Of a stretch of 34,689 nucleotides of DNA, positions 16,485 to 24,432 are shown one piece after another; position 1 is the stretch's first letter, and each line of letters opens with the position of its first letter. Source of the DNA: a virus; the IMG/VR virus record IMGVR_UViG_3300031566_000201, positions 1 to 34,689 of that record; one strand, written 5' to 3'. Made by a program: the position numbers and the translations under genes. The notes beneath the pieces are model-generated. The model saw nothing but the letters and a program-made list of their open reading frames with translations, ran no database searches and had not been told where the DNA came from.

Positions 16485-17543
16485 TTATCCCAACAAGTTG
16501 ATCGGGCGCTTCTGCCCGAAACACTCTTCCGCGAACGGACATTTCTGCGCTCGCGAATGTTTGATTGAGTCACACGCTCTCCAAGCCCCCTCTGGCACGG
16601 TCTCCTTATCCACAGCCTGCATTGATGCCTTGATCTTTGCGAACGCTGGCGCGAGTACCTTCTTGAAGTCCGGCAAGAAGATGAACTCCTTTTCCGCCAT
16701 CGTGTTTTTGTTGACGTAGATGATGTTGATGAAATCTGCTCCCAGCGCCCAAGCGTAGCACGTCGTCTGAAAGACGTGTTCCGGCTGAGGAAGCTGCATG
16801 TACTTTCCCGTAAAGCCGTTGTCGTTGATCGTCTTGAACTCAACAATCCCCTTCAGGCCATTCACCATTCGGATGCCATCCGACCTACCATGCAGGTTGA
16901 ACTCTGGAATGAAGAACTCAGGCTCCACATAAATCCACGCCCAATCGTGCGTGTTGATGTTCTTCCCGCATTTCGGGCACGGCTCTGGCACCCTTGATGT
17001 CAGACCAAGCTCATCTTTATATAGCTTGGTCGGCATCTTGACTATCTTTTCTTCTGGTGTGTGGTATCCGCACTGCGGGCACTGCCACTGCCCAACCAAT
17101 TCGTTGATAAGCCCGCCATAGAACTGGAGCATCGCGTGCATCGCGGTTCCCTGACCCATCTTCGGGTAAGACTCCGGTTTGAAGGAACTCTTGGCGAACT
17201 TCACGAAGCCCTTCACCTTATTCTTTAGCTCTTGATCCTTCGTGCTCTTCGCCGCCTTCATTGCGTTGAAATACTTGACCATGAAGTAGTATTGGTGCGG
17301 GCACAGGTCAGCAATCTGGCTTGGGTGGAAGTTGAACTTCTTCTCCCACAAGAACGGTTGCGCGTGCAGCGCCACGCCAGCCTTCTTCACCAACTGAAGC
17401 TTCGGAATGGTGGCAACGTCGATGACCTTCGGCTCAGCAAACAGGTCTTCCATGTCCACAACAATGGACTGAGGATCAGCGGGCTCATGCTTCTCCGCTT
17501 CCTTCAGGAATTCGACAGCCGCTTCGGCAAACCAGTCACTCAC
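16485..17543 (-). CDS. Cas4/AddB-like Fe-S PD-(D/E)XK nuclease with inserted zinc ribbon
   Basis: This 352-residue protein shows the RecB/Cas4 nuclease motifs: His in 'GTAMHAML' (H136), Asp in 'LHGRSDGI' (D222), Glu-x-Lys in 'GIVEFKTIN' (E235, K237) and the Gln/Tyr motif 'HVFQTTCYAW' (Q259, Y263). An iron-sulfur staple is indicated by C81 (LCPHQYYF) plus three late cysteines C324, C335, C341 (WRACDSIKHS, KCPFAEECFG). Between the His and Asp motifs there is an extra zinc ribbon, CPQCGYH (155, 158) and CPKCGKN (189, 192). It would act as a DNA exonuclease next to RecA-like and Hjc-like genes. It is not linked to any CRISPR array here. Confidence 0.82.
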   Translation of the reverse strand: MSDWFAEAAVEFLKEAEKHEPADPQSIVVDMEDLFAEPKVIDVATIPKLQLVKKAGVALHAQPFLWEKKFNFHPSQIADLCPHQYYFMVKYFNAMKAAKSTKDQELKNKVKGFVKFAKSSFKPESYPKMGQGTAMHAMLQFYGGLINELVGQWQCPQCGYHTPEEKIVKMPTKLYKDELGLTSRVPEPCPKCGKNINTHDWAWIYVEPEFFIPEFNLHGRSDGIRMVNGLKGIVEFKTINDNGFTGKYMQLPQPEHVFQTTCYAWALGADFINIIYVNKNTMAEKEFIFLPDFKKVLAPAFAKIKASMQAVDKETVPEGAWRACDSIKHSRAQKCPFAEECFGQKRPINLLG

Positions 17544-17979
17544 TTTTGACTACCTGTTCTGCCCACTCTTGGGCTTCCTTGAGATTCCCCGCCAACGCGC
17601 ACTCTGCCGTCATCATCAGCGCTTCAAAATGGTGTTCCGCAATGAGAACGAAATCCGAATCGGTGTTAGGTACTCCCTTGTCAAACCCGACTGTCAGAAG
17701 TGGCACCTTGCCAACTGCCATCGCCTCAGAAGCAATCTTCGCCAGCACTGAACGCTTCACCGCAATGCTGTCCTTCTCTGTCGTCTTGGCTTCGTTCAGA
17801 AAACTGGCATTGAACACGTCGCCCTTCTGCCTGCCTGACCCGGAGCCTCGTGTGCGCTCCCCGCGCAGCATCTTCTTTGACTTCTCTTCCTGCTGCTGCC
17901 AGCCGGGAGTCTTGACACCGATCTGCTTGGGGCGGCGACCCTTGCCAGCCTGATCCGCTGCTTTGCTGAGTCTACTCAT
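17536..17979 (-). CDS. Hjc-like PD-(D/E)XK endonuclease
   Basis: This 147-residue protein has a basic N-terminus (GKGRRPKQIGVK) and then the core 'RTRGSGSGRQKGDVFNASFL' and 'NEAKTTEKDSIAVKR', which gives Asp 54, Glu 63 and Lys 65 of a PD-(D/E)XK site. The pattern (R-GSGS-x-KGD, then ExK, then S-helix and 'VPLLTVGFD') is typical of phage and archaeal Hjc/RecU-type junction resolvases and related nucleases. The ATG at 17979 overlaps the RecA-like stop by 8 nt (ATGAGTAG). A role in processing recombination junctions fits its place between the RecA-like and Cas4-like genes. Confidence 0.75.
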   Translation of the reverse strand: MSRLSKAADQAGKGRRPKQIGVKTPGWQQQEEKSKKMLRGERTRGSGSGRQKGDVFNASFLNEAKTTEKDSIAVKRSVLAKIASEAMAVGKVPLLTVGFDKGVPNTDSDFVLIAEHHFEALMMTAECALAGNLKEAQEWAEQVVKSE

Positions 17980-19612
17980 CGTCAAAGTCATCCAAGTCAT
18001 CCAGCTTCTTCGTCGGTGCGTCATCCTTCTTGTCGTCTTTCGAAGACAATCCGGTTGCTGTCAGGTCCGCGTCGTCAGAGTCCTGAGCCATGTCCACTTC
18101 AAGACCTTTGATCTTCATTGCCTGCGTTTTCACATAGGGCTTTTCTTTGTCGTAAACTTCTACGGTCCCCTTTTCCTTGGCGAACTCTGGCAGCTTCACA
18201 CCAGCCTTCTTGAACATCGCAGTCATAAGACGATTACGAAGGTCCATGTAGATCGTCTCGTTTTCCTTGAGGAAGGATTTGCAGTCTCCTACCTTGGAAA
18301 ACGAGTAGACCTGAACCTCATTGTCAAACTCAGTGGTGAAGACCAGCTTCTCTTTGCCTGTCTTACCCGCATAGATCAGGCCCAACTCACGGCACATGGT
18401 CATCACGGTTGTGGTGTCGTCACAGTCCCCCACGCTCTTGTCTTCCATCTCGACAAGCTGGAACCGGATCAATCCTGTTGCCTCTGGAGAACCGCCGACT
18501 TTGTTCTTCTTGATGGTGAACTCGAAATCACCGTAGTCAGCAATCGTCTCGTTGATCTTGTGGTACGACTTGGCTCTCATTCGAATGTCCACGCTGAGAG
18601 CGTGTTCCGAATTGGAGTCTGAACCTGAAGGTGCCATCCACGGTGGTATTGAGCCGCCAATGCCATGCACCGAAACCTGCGAAGTGCAAAGAACGGTGGG
18701 GGCGTAACGGGAAGATAGCCCTGTCATGTGACGGTAATGGTTCAGGCGCTTGAACAGTCTCTTGAGGAAGCTGGCAGTCGCCGCAATCTGTTCTTTGGCT
18801 TCCGGCGCGGTCTCCAAAAGCTTCTTGGGAGTCAAACCGGAAAGGGAGTCAATCACAATCAGGTCGATGCCACCTACTTCCATTACTTCCTGAAGGTAGT
18901 CCATCGTCTGCTCGCCCCACGCGGCACCCAGCACCATAACCAGCGACGGGTCCACACCGTTGGACTCAACCCATTCGATGTCTGCCGTGCGGTCGGTGTC
19001 AACGTACAGCGTGCGCATGGGCTCGCAGCGGTCCTCGACTTCGAAGTAGATTTTAGCCTTCGGACCATTCGCGGCATTACGAACTGCTTCCGTAGCCTTC
19101 TCCGGGCACTCACCAGTAACAAATGGTTTCTTTGACTTACCCTTTCCTTCCCACTTGGCCTTCTCAGGAAGCTTCCCGCGAATGATGGAAGCTGCGTCCT
19201 CTGGAGAAAGCCATGCGTAGAGTTCGGGCTTGCCAGACATGGCGTAGCGTGGATTCGGACAACCACACTTGATTTCAACCGCACCCTCTTCGCCCTTGAG
19301 CGCCACGAGAGGAAGCTTGCAATGGCGACACGTCTTCTGCGCTTGCCCAAGGATGCGCAAACACATCGTCGTCTTCAGCGTAGACTTCGGACCCCAAATA
19401 CGGGTGTAGTGGCTGATCGGGATTCCACCCTGCAACGCCTGATCTAGCGTGAAGATGCCGAACGGCAACTTCTTTCGATGAACGTAATCAGCACGGTCCA
19501 ACGGCATCATAAAGTCTGTGCCGTAGCGACGGTTCAAGCTGGATGAAATGGCTTCCAGCGCTTTTCTCCCAGCCATTGGATCGCCGGGGGGTGGAGTGAT
19601 TTGGGTTGCCAT
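17972..19612 (-). CDS. RecA/UvsX-like recombinase with cysteine-rich insert
   Basis: This 546-residue protein has a RecA core: Walker A 'IWGPKSTLKTT' (Lys 80; the residue before Lys is Leu, as T4 UvsX also departs from Gly), Walker B 'IDLIVIDSLSG' (Asp 255), 'APTVLCTSQVSV', and 'EHALSVDIRMRA'. Between the Walker A helix and the next core strand (TLYVDTDRTAD, catalytic Glu replaced by Asp) lies an extra segment of about 105 residues with C95, C98, C116, C118 and C169, probably zinc-binding. The C-terminus is acidic and ends DDLDDFDDE, like the SSB-like protein. It drives strand exchange. The ATG overlaps the upstream stop (TGATG) and follows AAGAAGG. Confidence 0.87.
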   Translation of the reverse strand: MATQITPPPGDPMAGRKALEAISSSLNRRYGTDFMMPLDRADYVHRKKLPFGIFTLDQALQGGIPISHYTRIWGPKSTLKTTMCLRILGQAQKTCRHCKLPLVALKGEEGAVEIKCGCPNPRYAMSGKPELYAWLSPEDAASIIRGKLPEKAKWEGKGKSKKPFVTGECPEKATEAVRNAANGPKAKIYFEVEDRCEPMRTLYVDTDRTADIEWVESNGVDPSLVMVLGAAWGEQTMDYLQEVMEVGGIDLIVIDSLSGLTPKKLLETAPEAKEQIAATASFLKRLFKRLNHYRHMTGLSSRYAPTVLCTSQVSVHGIGGSIPPWMAPSGSDSNSEHALSVDIRMRAKSYHKINETIADYGDFEFTIKKNKVGGSPEATGLIRFQLVEMEDKSVGDCDDTTTVMTMCRELGLIYAGKTGKEKLVFTTEFDNEVQVYSFSKVGDCKSFLKENETIYMDLRNRLMTAMFKKAGVKLPEFAKEKGTVEVYDKEKPYVKTQAMKIKGLEVDMAQDSDDADLTATGLSSKDDKKDDAPTKKLDDLDDFDDE

Positions 19613-20585: not shown

Positions 20586-21959
20586 CTACCACGAGTTCTT
20601 GATGTTCAAACCCTCTTTGTTGTAAATCGTCTGTCTCTCCAAAGCCTGTCGCTTCAGTGCGGGGTGGTCATCCACGAGGTCAAGGATGATCGGCTTGGCA
20701 CTTCCTACTCTTAGTGCCCTGCCTACTGGTTGCTCCACGTCCGCAACCGGGGTTGCGAACAAAAGCACGTCAATCTCTTTCACGTCCAAACCTTCCTGAG
20801 CCATTGCATAGGTGCCCAGCATGATCTGTTTGTTCTTCGCCACGTCGTCAAGCTCAGCCTGCTTCCTTCCACCAACGTAAAAACCAGCGTGCTTTCGAAC
20901 GTCAGATGGCAGCAGTTGGAATAGGATAGTCAAATGATCTCGACGTGCCGACAGCAAAAGAATCTTTCTGCCTTCCTTGCACGCATCGACCATGTACTTG
21001 ACCAGAATCTTGTTTCGAGGCGCATTGTTCATCAGCTTCTTGGACACCTTGTTCTTGTCCAGCTTGCCAGCGCGCAGGATTTCATTGTGAGGTCCAACCC
21101 AACGGACTGGCACGTAGTACACGTCAGCCTCAATCGGGTCTCGCTCCATCTCGTAGAGGACAGAACCAACGGTGTAGTCGAACACCGCTTCCAGCCCATC
21201 CTTGCGTCGAAGCGTTGCAGTCACGCCGATGATGTAGCGGGAGTAGAAGCGGCTGATCGCATCGAACCACGTCGCAGCAGCGATGTGATGAACCTCGTCC
21301 ACCAGAATCGTTCCGAATGAACGGTACAGGTCTTCCGGGTAGTCACGAGCAGCAAGCGTCTGAACCATCGCAATCACGAACGGAAACTCAGGTCCGTAGT
21401 CACAGTGGTCTTGCTGAATCTTGCCGACCTTCGGTTTCGTACCGTCAATGCTTACGAAGGTTTCGAAGGCTTCCTTCCACTGCTTATACAGGAACTCTTT
21501 TCCGACGATGACCAGCGTCGAGGAACCAAGACCGCAGGCTGCCGCCGACCCCATGACCGTCTTGCCACTACCGCACGGAGCGATGCCGAAGCCGCCAAAC
21601 TTGTTAGTGATTGTGGAATTGACTACTGCTTCCACGAACTGTGGCTGATCGCTGGGGTAGGGCTTCTTACCCAATTCCACCAGCACCTTCGGGTTTATGA
21701 GCGGGTGTCCCTTGGAGCGCTTGTCTACCAGCGTATGGGACTTGCGAAGAAGACGACGGGCAAACATGCGAGGAAGCCAAACCCATTCATCGTTGTCTTT
21801 GAACAGGCTGATCTTCTCAAAGCCACCGCGATACTTGCGCTGCTTCAGCACCAGATTCTCGCCAATGGCAGCAATCTGCCCGTCAGTCAGGGTAGACTTT
21901 CGAACAGCAACCATGCTTCCAAGGGTGGCGCGGGGCTTTGTCGCCGTTTCAGTCTTCAT
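20586..21959 (-). CDS. SF2 DNA helicase (XPB/UvsW-like)
   Basis: This 457-residue helicase has the full SF2 set: Walker A 'GIAPCGSGKTVMG' (Lys 133), DEVH box 'ILVDEVHHI' (Asp 221), motif III 'IIGVTATLRRKDG', motif V-like 'MAQEGLDVKEIDVLLFATP' and motif VI 'EQPVGRALRVG' (Arg 414, 417). The order and 'RKDG' after motif III are typical of the XPB/UvsW/RAD25 group. It probably remodels R-loops or branched DNA in replication restart, next to the polymerase gene. The first ATG (21959) coincides with the predicted +1 of promoter P3; an ATG at 21914 after GGAAGC is an alternative start with a leader. Confidence 0.88.
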   Translation of the reverse strand: MKTETATKPRATLGSMVAVRKSTLTDGQIAAIGENLVLKQRKYRGGFEKISLFKDNDEWVWLPRMFARRLLRKSHTLVDKRSKGHPLINPKVLVELGKKPYPSDQPQFVEAVVNSTITNKFGGFGIAPCGSGKTVMGSAAACGLGSSTLVIVGKEFLYKQWKEAFETFVSIDGTKPKVGKIQQDHCDYGPEFPFVIAMVQTLAARDYPEDLYRSFGTILVDEVHHIAAATWFDAISRFYSRYIIGVTATLRRKDGLEAVFDYTVGSVLYEMERDPIEADVYYVPVRWVGPHNEILRAGKLDKNKVSKKLMNNAPRNKILVKYMVDACKEGRKILLLSARRDHLTILFQLLPSDVRKHAGFYVGGRKQAELDDVAKNKQIMLGTYAMAQEGLDVKEIDVLLFATPVADVEQPVGRALRVGSAKPIILDLVDDHPALKRQALERQTIYNKEGLNIKNSW

Positions 21960-22042: not shown

Positions 22043-24385
22043 TTAGTGGGCTAACTCCCACGACTCCGCGCCGACACTGCCTTCAGACAGGATGGGAACC
22101 CTGATCTGGCAGCAGTTCTCAAGGTGGAACTTGAGACGGTCACCAACCTGATGGGACACGTCCTTCGGTGCTTCCAGCATCGTCTCGTCGTGAACCTGAA
22201 GCAGATAGCGGGCCTTGCCGATGGTCTCTGGCTTCTCCTGCATCTCTGTGTAGAGGTCACGCATCCCAAGCTTCATAATGTCACCGGCAGAGCCCTGAAT
22301 GATGCAGTTGTAGGCACTGCGGATCACGGACTCAAACTGGTACTGGTTGATCTTCCCGGCGCGGAAGGCATTCACATCCTTGAAGAACCTGCGACGACGC
22401 CCGGACAGCATTTCAAACCAACCGACCTTCTTGATGCGTTGCTCAACCCACTCGTGGTACTGCTTCACGCCCGGATAGGCGTTGAAATACCCGTCGTAGA
22501 TGACCTTGCCTTCTGCCTCGCTGATGCCCAATTCCTGCGCGAGAGACTTGTGGTGCTTGCCGTACAGCAGACCGAAGTTCACCGGCTTTGCGAGGTCACG
22601 CCCGCGCTCCATGCCATACGTCTTGAACAGCGGGGTCAGCACACAGGTCAGAGCATGGATGTCCATGCCAAGGCAGAACCCACTGATAGCTGGCTGTTCA
22701 GGATTCAGCTTGTCGCGCTTTCCGGGTGGCGCACCGCACTTCGGGCACGCATGGATCGCGACTTTGGTCTGGCCACTCTCTCCGCACTCAGCGCAGTCCC
22801 ACTGGCGATACGCTTTCAGCAGTGCCTTGTCCCGGCTGAAGTGCGCCATCAGGCGCAACTCGATCTGTGAAAGGTCGTAGGAAATTAGGTCGTAGCCCTC
22901 AGTCGGTATGAACACCTTCCTGAAGGACTCTGTTCGCCACTTGAACCGCCCGCTCGCCTTATCCGCTCCAGAGAAGACATAGCCTTCCGGCAAGTTGGTG
23001 GGATTCTTTTCCGGCTCCGGTCCCCAACCTTCTGTCGCCCAACGCTGCGGCAGCACATGGGGTTTAGGAATGGTCTGCATACTGATCTTCTTGGTTGTGC
23101 CCTTGCCGCCACCAGAAGTCCAGCGTCCAGTGTCAGCACCAATCGGATTGAAGGACGTGAAGATTCTACCGTTGCGTTCCTGTTTCAGAATCGCTTCCGC
23201 GTAGGTGCCAAGCATCTTGCACACGTTGCGGTAGCGCTTCAGTGCCTTCGCCTGCGTAATACCCTTCTTGTCGGCAAGCCATTCCAGCACAGCACCGGGG
23301 CAACCGTACTCTCCAGTCTTATCGCTGGGTTTGAGCCACTTCGGTGGTTTCAGTCCAAGAGTCTTCCAGAACAGGTCTCTTACCTGTTCCGATGAGTTCG
23401 GATTGAAGTCCGGGCCGAACCAGTTGACGAACTGCTTCTCCAGCTTCTTCTTCATGCTGACCAGCACAACCTTGATGCGCTTGGTAACCTCAAGGTCAAC
23501 ACGAATTCCGTGGTGCTGCATCTCCGTAACAATGAACATCATCGGCAGTTCAAGACCGTCATGGATTGCCTGCAAATCGCACTTCTCAGCGACTTTGAAC
23601 TCTGTGAACAACTTGTCGTATAAGTGGTGAAGAAGTAATGTGTAAACCGCATCGTCCGTCGCGTACTCAGCGAACCGCTCGTCCTTCTTTCGGTTGTAGA
23701 ACGCAATGATCCGCTGCTCGAAACGCTCGCGGACATAGCTGATAACAGCGTTCTTCTTCATCTTCGGCTTGAGCCGGTGAGTCACACGCTTCCAGCTAGG
23801 CCAATCATCCATGATCTCGGAGTCATGGGGGAAATCCTCGTCGCTGGTCCTGCGGTTGTCCCTGTACCACGTCCATGCCGCCACCAACATCTTCTTGATG
23901 ATCTGCACGCCCTTCTTGTCGTACTGCTCCAGTTCCTTCTGCGTCTGCTTGTAGGTCAGAGCGCCCTTGGCACCCAACCTAAGCTTCGCCTGTTCCTTGA
24001 GCCCCTTCAGTTCGTTCTCGTCCCACAGGAAGCTCTTTATCATCGTGTCGCTGAGAGTCTTCGGGTACGCAATCTTGCGCGTCTTCAGTACGCCCAATTC
24101 AGCACAGGCGTTGTGAACAACGATGATCTTGGATTCGTCGTGAAGGATTGGTTTGAGGATGTCGTTGCGTGCGCGCTTAGGGTCGGTGAGATTGTGCCCC
24201 CGGAATGACCAGTAGTGCGCAATCACCTGTTCGGGGTTGTCTGGATCAAGACACGCCATTGAGAAACCGTGCCAAGCTGCCACTGCTGGTGGCAACGATC
24301 CGTCGTACTCAGTGTCGAAGGAAACTACCGGTGCGGCCTTCAACGCTTCGATAACCTTTTCTTCGGAAAGCTTCTTGATCTTCAT
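22043..24385 (-). CDS. polA: Family A DNA polymerase with zinc-ribbon insert
   Basis: This 780-residue polymerase has an N-terminal DEDD 3'-5' exonuclease (FDTEYDG with D24 and E26; 'VVHNACAELGVL'; 'YATDDAVYTLL' with D245). In exo motif II the usual Asp is Glu 96. The polymerase part has motif A 'SYDLSQIELRLMAHF' (D504), motif B 'RDLAKPVNFGLLYG' (K600, F604, Y608) and motif C 'LQVHDETMLEA' (D733). A zinc ribbon (C531, C534, C547, C550; CAECGES and CPKCGAP) is inserted between motifs A and B, in the fingers. It replicates the phage genome. I chose ATG 24385, 6 nt after GAGGGG; ATG 24391 touches that site. Confidence 0.93.
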   Translation of the reverse strand: MKIKKLSEEKVIEALKAAPVVSFDTEYDGSLPPAVAAWHGFSMACLDPDNPEQVIAHYWSFRGHNLTDPKRARNDILKPILHDESKIIVVHNACAELGVLKTRKIAYPKTLSDTMIKSFLWDENELKGLKEQAKLRLGAKGALTYKQTQKELEQYDKKGVQIIKKMLVAAWTWYRDNRRTSDEDFPHDSEIMDDWPSWKRVTHRLKPKMKKNAVISYVRERFEQRIIAFYNRKKDERFAEYATDDAVYTLLLHHLYDKLFTEFKVAEKCDLQAIHDGLELPMMFIVTEMQHHGIRVDLEVTKRIKVVLVSMKKKLEKQFVNWFGPDFNPNSSEQVRDLFWKTLGLKPPKWLKPSDKTGEYGCPGAVLEWLADKKGITQAKALKRYRNVCKMLGTYAEAILKQERNGRIFTSFNPIGADTGRWTSGGGKGTTKKISMQTIPKPHVLPQRWATEGWGPEPEKNPTNLPEGYVFSGADKASGRFKWRTESFRKVFIPTEGYDLISYDLSQIELRLMAHFSRDKALLKAYRQWDCAECGESGQTKVAIHACPKCGAPPGKRDKLNPEQPAISGFCLGMDIHALTCVLTPLFKTYGMERGRDLAKPVNFGLLYGKHHKSLAQELGISEAEGKVIYDGYFNAYPGVKQYHEWVEQRIKKVGWFEMLSGRRRRFFKDVNAFRAGKINQYQFESVIRSAYNCIIQGSAGDIMKLGMRDLYTEMQEKPETIGKARYLLQVHDETMLEAPKDVSHQVGDRLKFHLENCCQIRVPILSEGSVGAESWELAH

Positions 24386-24401
24386 GCCCATCCCCTCAGA
24401 C

Positions 24402-24432
24402 AAAAAACCGGGGCAGGCTCAACCTGCCCCGG
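24402..24432 (-). terminator. Strong intrinsic terminator after SSB-like gene
   Basis: A perfect 10 bp GC-rich stem (CCGGGGCAGG / CCTGCCCCGG) with a 5 nt loop is followed on the minus strand by TTTTTT. It lies 16 nt past the stop of the SSB-like gene and its T-run ends about 16 nt before the polymerase start. It ends the SSB-like transcript, and the polymerase would then depend on read-through or antitermination because no promoter is seen between them. Confidence 0.88.

Follow-up and report, generated by a model that had tools for sequence, protein, structure and literature searches.

How does one of biology's most conserved ATPase cores come to hold an apparently folded, cysteine-rich domain, and what might such a domain do there? 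The question is raised by a gene in a virus record from IMG/VR, 34,689 bases long (IMGVR_UViG_3300031566_000201), the whole of which is the window analysed here. A first-pass annotation, made from the letters of the window, had read the open reading frame at 17972..19612 on the minus strand as a RecA/UvsX-like protein with a cysteine-rich insert of about 105 residues.

Identity of the recombinase

The gene begins with ATG and encodes 546 amino acids; all features of the window described below lie on the same, minus strand. Its assignment was borne out by a Pfam match to RecA (PF00154, E 2e-19, 70.5 bits against a curated cut-off of 27) and by a match to the UvsX-like recombinase family phrog_97 (E 5.9e-30). 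AlphaFold2, run with a 67-row alignment, returned a model with a mean pLDDT of 80 and a pTM of 0.79; it has the RecA fold (VIA Z 30.2 to 3cmx_A and 3cmw_C, 293–328 residues aligned). The score with the bacterial RecA orthologue profile TIGR02012 was 69 bits, below the equivalog cut-off of 325 bits. RadA/Sms is likewise a RecA paralogue with a zinc motif, but its finger lies outside the ATPase core, at the N terminus (PMC5928155), as the annotation had stated. No such N-terminal finger was found in the virus protein, where the cysteine cluster occupies residues 95–118, behind Walker A.

Most of the working parts of E. coli RecA have counterparts in the virus protein. A helix at residues 12–30 (19523..19579), placed by the model and by alignment of residues 16–98 to RecA, is the equivalent of the N-terminal oligomerisation helix. 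Walker B is LIVIDS (residues 251–256; 18845..18862), with D255 invariant and S256 nearly so across the alignment; the P-loop residues K80 and T81 are invariant as well. Gln312 (18677..18679), in another invariant column, corresponds to Gln194 of RecA, where DNA-binding loop L2 starts. The motif KNK (18500..18508), with K369 and K371 both invariant, supplies the equivalent of the trans-acting ATPase lysines, the [K/R]x[K/R] motif at the subunit interface whose role is set out in PMC12890299. The E. coli protein differs in having 24 residues from K72 to E96, no zinc, the catalytic Glu96, and GKT in Walker A. The GG motif of L2 is degenerate or missing in the virus RecA and in the subgroup formed with its nearest relatives (L151–L153 of our locus set), and strand exchange therefore cannot be assumed. 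The tail, residues 471–546 (17975..18202), is acidic at its end (...KKLDDLDDFDDE) and presumably disordered, with pLDDT under 50. Judged by sequence and predicted fold together, the protein is a member of the RecA/UvsX family and fails only the catalytic-glutamate feature. A second IMG/VR contig (L001, IMGVR_UViG_3300031539_000459) is 100% identical over RecA residues 284–546 and probably represents the same virus.

Position and composition of the insert

From the Walker A lysine, Lys80, to the residue at the position of the catalytic acid, Asp207, the virus RecA counts 127 residues, where cellular RecA has 24 and many phage RecAs have 26. This leaves an insert of about 103 residues, close to the figure first proposed. 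When the protein was compared with PDB chains by phmmer, residues 16–98 and 202–287 aligned to stretches that in RecA follow directly upon each other, and the core could be aligned with RecA only when the roughly 103 residues were excluded. The insert (residues about 93–199; 19016..19336) follows the Walker A helix, precedes the catalytic strand, and is folded in the AlphaFold2 models. Prediction and comparison place its site at the turn from the end of the P-loop helix (about Q84 in E. coli RecA) to the strand bearing the catalytic acid (E96).

The insert contains cysteines 95, 98, 116, and 118 (CxxC-x17-CxC) and also cysteines 169 and 196; the annotation had the CxxC...CxC right but counted a single additional cysteine. 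Only the first four are conserved in the three nearest relatives. They define a zinc-ribbon-like part, CRHC-x17-CGC (19259..19330), assigned from cysteine conservation and from the model, with hairpin strands at 103–106 and 112–115. The distal alpha/beta part (residues 119–197; 19022..19258) was, by alignment and models, common only to L151, L152, and L153. The motifs CR[HY]CK-x-P...CxCPxPR[FY] and, distally, FE...R..P are common to all four proteins.

Predicted structure of the insert

The compact insert anticipated by the annotation is present in the predicted structure: pLDDT ranged from 79 to 92 in ten-residue blocks over residues 93–200, and much the same elements appeared (pLDDT 75) when the insert was modelled alone from four sequences. 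Besides the hairpin, which is flanked by Cys 95/98 and Cys 116/118, the model contains strands at 122–125, 153–155, 162–168, and 185–193 and helices at 129–134, 137–144, and 175–180. Cysteine conservation and this predicted fold suggest that the insert probably binds zinc.

No known domain matched the insert in a Pfam search; the zinc finger of Mu Com, which the ribbon might have resembled, was set aside on this result. Fold searches of the PDB with the insert alone returned no significant match (nothing above Z 2.6 with VIA) and no convincing match for its distal half. Foldseek ranked the zinc ribbons of yeast Pol III C11 (7z31_I, 8bws_I) highest in probability among the low-rmsd matches; these were weak (probability about 0.2, rmsd 2.1 Å over 27–28 columns), and the resemblance is only suggestive. 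In a BFVD search with the whole model, two proteins of uncultured Caudovirales phages scored far above all others and may be further members of the insert family.

Distribution among viruses and cells

The annotation had proposed looking for this insert among further phage RecAs; when this was done, the insert turned up widely in uncultured viruses. A DNA pattern for Walker A followed by CxxC (G...KT...AQxxCxxC) was scanned over IMG/VR. Correctly spaced, it matched 109 stretches, nearly all encoding RecA-like proteins; a control pattern mis-spaced by one base gave 15 matches, none encoding RecA. A second cysteine pair in the insert (CxC or CxxC), which the pattern does not require, was present in 78 of 80 distinct scoreable RecA-like proteins, as compared to a mean of 15 and a maximum of 25 when the inserts were shuffled; it was missing in two close proteins, L133 and L142. 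All four cysteine columns held cysteine in 66 of the 67 alignment rows. Insert length ran from 15 to 163 residues, the smallest inserts making the protein just 15–18 residues longer than RecA. Net charge was not conserved (median +0.5, with long inserts acidic); inserts of the virus RecA's own subgroup were basic (+4 to +8). A second pattern, for insert-free viral RecAs with 26 residues from lysine to glutamate, was run over uncultured viruses; among the matches listed, 96 of 118 open reading frames were RecA-like and none had CxxC in the loop. Set against these, insert-bearing RecAs are, as far as such pattern matches can tell, not rare among uncultured viruses. Searches of IMG/VR with a single protein (the virus RecA's insert, or its DNA polymerase) found no relatives.

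The insert was absent from 78 cellular RecAs. The spacing from the Walker lysine to the catalytic glutamate was exactly 24 residues in 76 cellular RecA loci, the few others flagged being regex mis-hits or non-cellular, and a scan of genome contigs returned mostly cellular RecAs without the insert. Nor was the insert found in the isolated phages examined by tblastn with four insert-bearing proteins or segments; among the matches listed, isolated-phage spans that crossed the insert site were shorter than the query by about the length of the insert. The RecA-like proteins of Pseudomonas phage SM1 (Samunavirus), Rhizobium phage L338C, and Stenotrophomonas phage Summit share the core and the gene neighbourhood at 24–25% identity, but have 26–27 residues from lysine to glutamate and no insert. 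T4 UvsX, a phage RecA homologue of recombination-dependent replication, resembles the virus protein in having a residue other than Gly before the Walker A lysine (Phe, in GPSKSFKS), but it has 26 residues from lysine to glutamate, no cysteine insert, and the catalytic Glu. Streptococcus phage Dp-1 encodes a UvsX-like protein (L007, 2249–3409) that also carries an insert here, about 41 residues long and without cysteines, which suggests that this turn has tolerated inserts more than once. The earlier statement that RecA, RadA, and UvsX lack anything at this position thus stands where T4 UvsX and the tested cellular RecAs are concerned, and fails for Dp-1 and for many uncultured viruses. UvsXt and UvsXp, metagenomic recombinases that likewise come from uncultured phages and whose structures are solved, differ in having a standard Walker A (GxxxxGK[T/S]), and neither zinc nor cysteine is mentioned in their description (PMC12890299). 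A search of open-access journal papers turned up no account of a zinc ribbon inside RecA or UvsX.

One contig assigned to a Candidatus Sulfotelmatobacter bin (L155, JASHPH010000372.1) encodes a protein related to the insert family at 54% identity and ends before the insert; it is a possible hint of a host among the Acidobacteriota.

Relatives and selection

The nearest relatives of the virus RecA, L151, L153, and L152, are 34–39% identical to it and have the extended insert in common. In a tree built from the core with the insert removed, the virus RecA joined these three (SH-aLRT 100), and the insert-bearing rows required 3 changes, as compared to 53 with shuffled labels. These sequence results are consistent with one or a few origins of insert-bearing RecAs; one origin followed by later losses is possible. 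In nine pairs of close relatives, dN/dS of the insert, where computable, was 0.04–0.24, much like the core, and by this measure the insert is under purifying selection. Alignment and models further indicate that the subgroup of the virus RecA has enlarged the ribbon with an alpha/beta part.

Active site

Two residues of the ATP site had been singled out as unusual. Walker A reads GPKSTLKT (residues 74–81; 19370..19393), with Leu79 in place of Gly before Lys80. The leucine is real, but it is less of an oddity than had been supposed: KSTLKT recurs in L151 and L153, L152 and L141 have Phe at this position, as does T4 UvsX, and the residue before the lysine is other than Gly (Ser, Cys, Ala, Leu, or Phe) in 35 of 93 insert-bearing relatives. 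Leu79 as the mark of a dead ATPase was rejected given the phenylalanine of UvsX. A residue other than Gly was commoner with the insert than without it (35/93 versus 7/96; Fisher p 4e-7, with few independent pairs and the contribution of shared descent not separable).

The replacement of the catalytic Glu by Asp was upheld. Asp207 (18992..18994) stands at the position of E. coli Glu96, where 65 of the 67 aligned rows have Glu; the remaining row, L088, is apparently misaligned there. Across these rows and 81 scored proteins Asp was seen in this virus RecA only, L151–L153 having Glu, and it appears from these alignments to be private to the protein. E. coli RecA E96D shows altered ATP hydrolysis, favours saturated filaments, and fails in recombination in vivo (PMC5240526); by analogy with that mutant, ATP turnover by the virus RecA is probably slow.

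Gene neighbourhood

The recombinase gene lies in an apparent recombination module with the order family A DNA polymerase (PolA; 22043..24403), ResIII/SF2 helicase (20586..21959), HTH protein, small protein, RecA, Holliday junction resolvase-like protein (phrog_2002; 17536..18024, overlapping the 3′ end of the RecA open reading frame), and Cas4/PD-(D/E)XK exonuclease (16485..17543). Inspection of open reading frames showed that the whole order from PolA to exonuclease is common to L151–L153. The part from helicase to exonuclease is largely common to the isolated phages SM1, Summit, and L338C, whose RecAs are without the insert.

PolA has a cysteine-rich insert of its own. It comprises about 44 residues with CxxC...CxxC (residues 536–579; 22667–22798) between motif A (DLSQIELR) and the DIH motif, which are separated by 60–63 residues instead of 19. 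It is common to this virus and L151, L152, and L153, and was absent from the three other PolAs in our loci and from 20 isolated-phage matches listed. The exonuclease carries a ribbon motif, CPQCG...CPKCG (residues 155–193; 16965–17081), similar to ones in L151, L153, and L141. RecA, PolA, and the exonuclease of this module thus all have Cys4 motifs.

Role of the insert

On balance we favour, with some confidence, the reading that this is the virus's own filament-forming RecA/UvsX recombinase, with a zinc ribbon in its ATPase core as a docking or structural module. The core keeps the oligomerisation helix, the P-loop Lys-Thr, Walker B, the L2 glutamine, and both of the lysines with which one subunit completes the ATP site of the next. 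Such a protein would form ATP-bound filaments on single-stranded DNA and drive strand exchange for recombination-dependent replication. The four cysteines would bind one zinc ion, giving a ribbon that clamps the turn; by RecA topology, the ribbon would form a surface platform on the filament, where it could dock a phage replication partner or, in the basic subgroup of the virus RecA, DNA.

The ribbon may instead be a mere structural staple that makes a long loop tolerable near the active site, with no partner and no regulation. The smallest inserts, at 15–18 residues beyond RecA, and the wide variation of charge and length would fit such a staple, and we keep it as a tentative possibility; however, purifying selection acts on the insert much as it does on the core, and a neutral loop should often be lost, yet the tree needs only 3 changes. 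An added DNA-binding surface, capturing duplex DNA during the homology search, seems unlikely. Zinc ribbons are frequent nucleic-acid binders and the subgroup's inserts are basic, but family-wide the insert is neutral or acidic, and because its charge is not conserved the sequences lend no support to a DNA-binding role throughout the family. A redox-sensitive disulphide site in place of a zinc site, to which the cysteine pairs alone would be equally suited, is very improbable: CxxC...CxC on a beta hairpin is the typical layout of a zinc-ribbon knuckle, and the bacterial cytosol is reducing.

A different proposal concerns the enzyme itself, which could be a RecA paralogue with impaired catalysis, performing no strand exchange of its own and serving to regulate another recombinase. 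Leu79, the apparently private Asp207, the loss of the L2 GG motif in the subgroup, and the failure of E96D RecA in vivo would all suit such a protein. Against it, T4 UvsX is an active recombinase with Phe at the leucine position, L151–L153 keep the glutamate, the P-loop lysine and trans lysines are kept, and no second RecA occurred among the virus proteins scanned (the record is a fragment); we consider it improbable. The favoured recombinase could also be taken much further, though here we are quite doubtful: insert-bearing RecAs would be a large undescribed viral clade with its own mediator. The ribbon would then contact the next subunit, the polymerase, or SSB, linking ATP turnover directly to the binding of DNA or of a partner, and would stand in for a separate loader of the UvsY/RecFOR type. 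In this virus's lineage the PolA and exonuclease ribbons would join one docking network.

The RecA/UvsX family itself is well known; the insert recurs in dozens of uncultured viruses. These viruses keep what is predicted to be a folded four-cysteine domain at the turn where the ATP site's two halves meet. Should the insert bind a partner or govern ATP turnover, it would offer a natural handle on the loading and switching of a recombinase. It also marks a sizeable viral clade, unrepresented among the cultured phages examined, that might yield recombinases for use in isothermal amplification.

Several insert-bearing RecAs themselves appear to be interrupted by inteins (L116:4951-7188, L099:326-2638, L093:3209-5632, and L126:1697-3397). 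LAGLIDADG domains were detected in three of these, lying beyond the point where the core arrives at loop L2 in L116 and L099 and ahead of the catalytic strand in L093; L126 has a similar break with no Pfam intein match.
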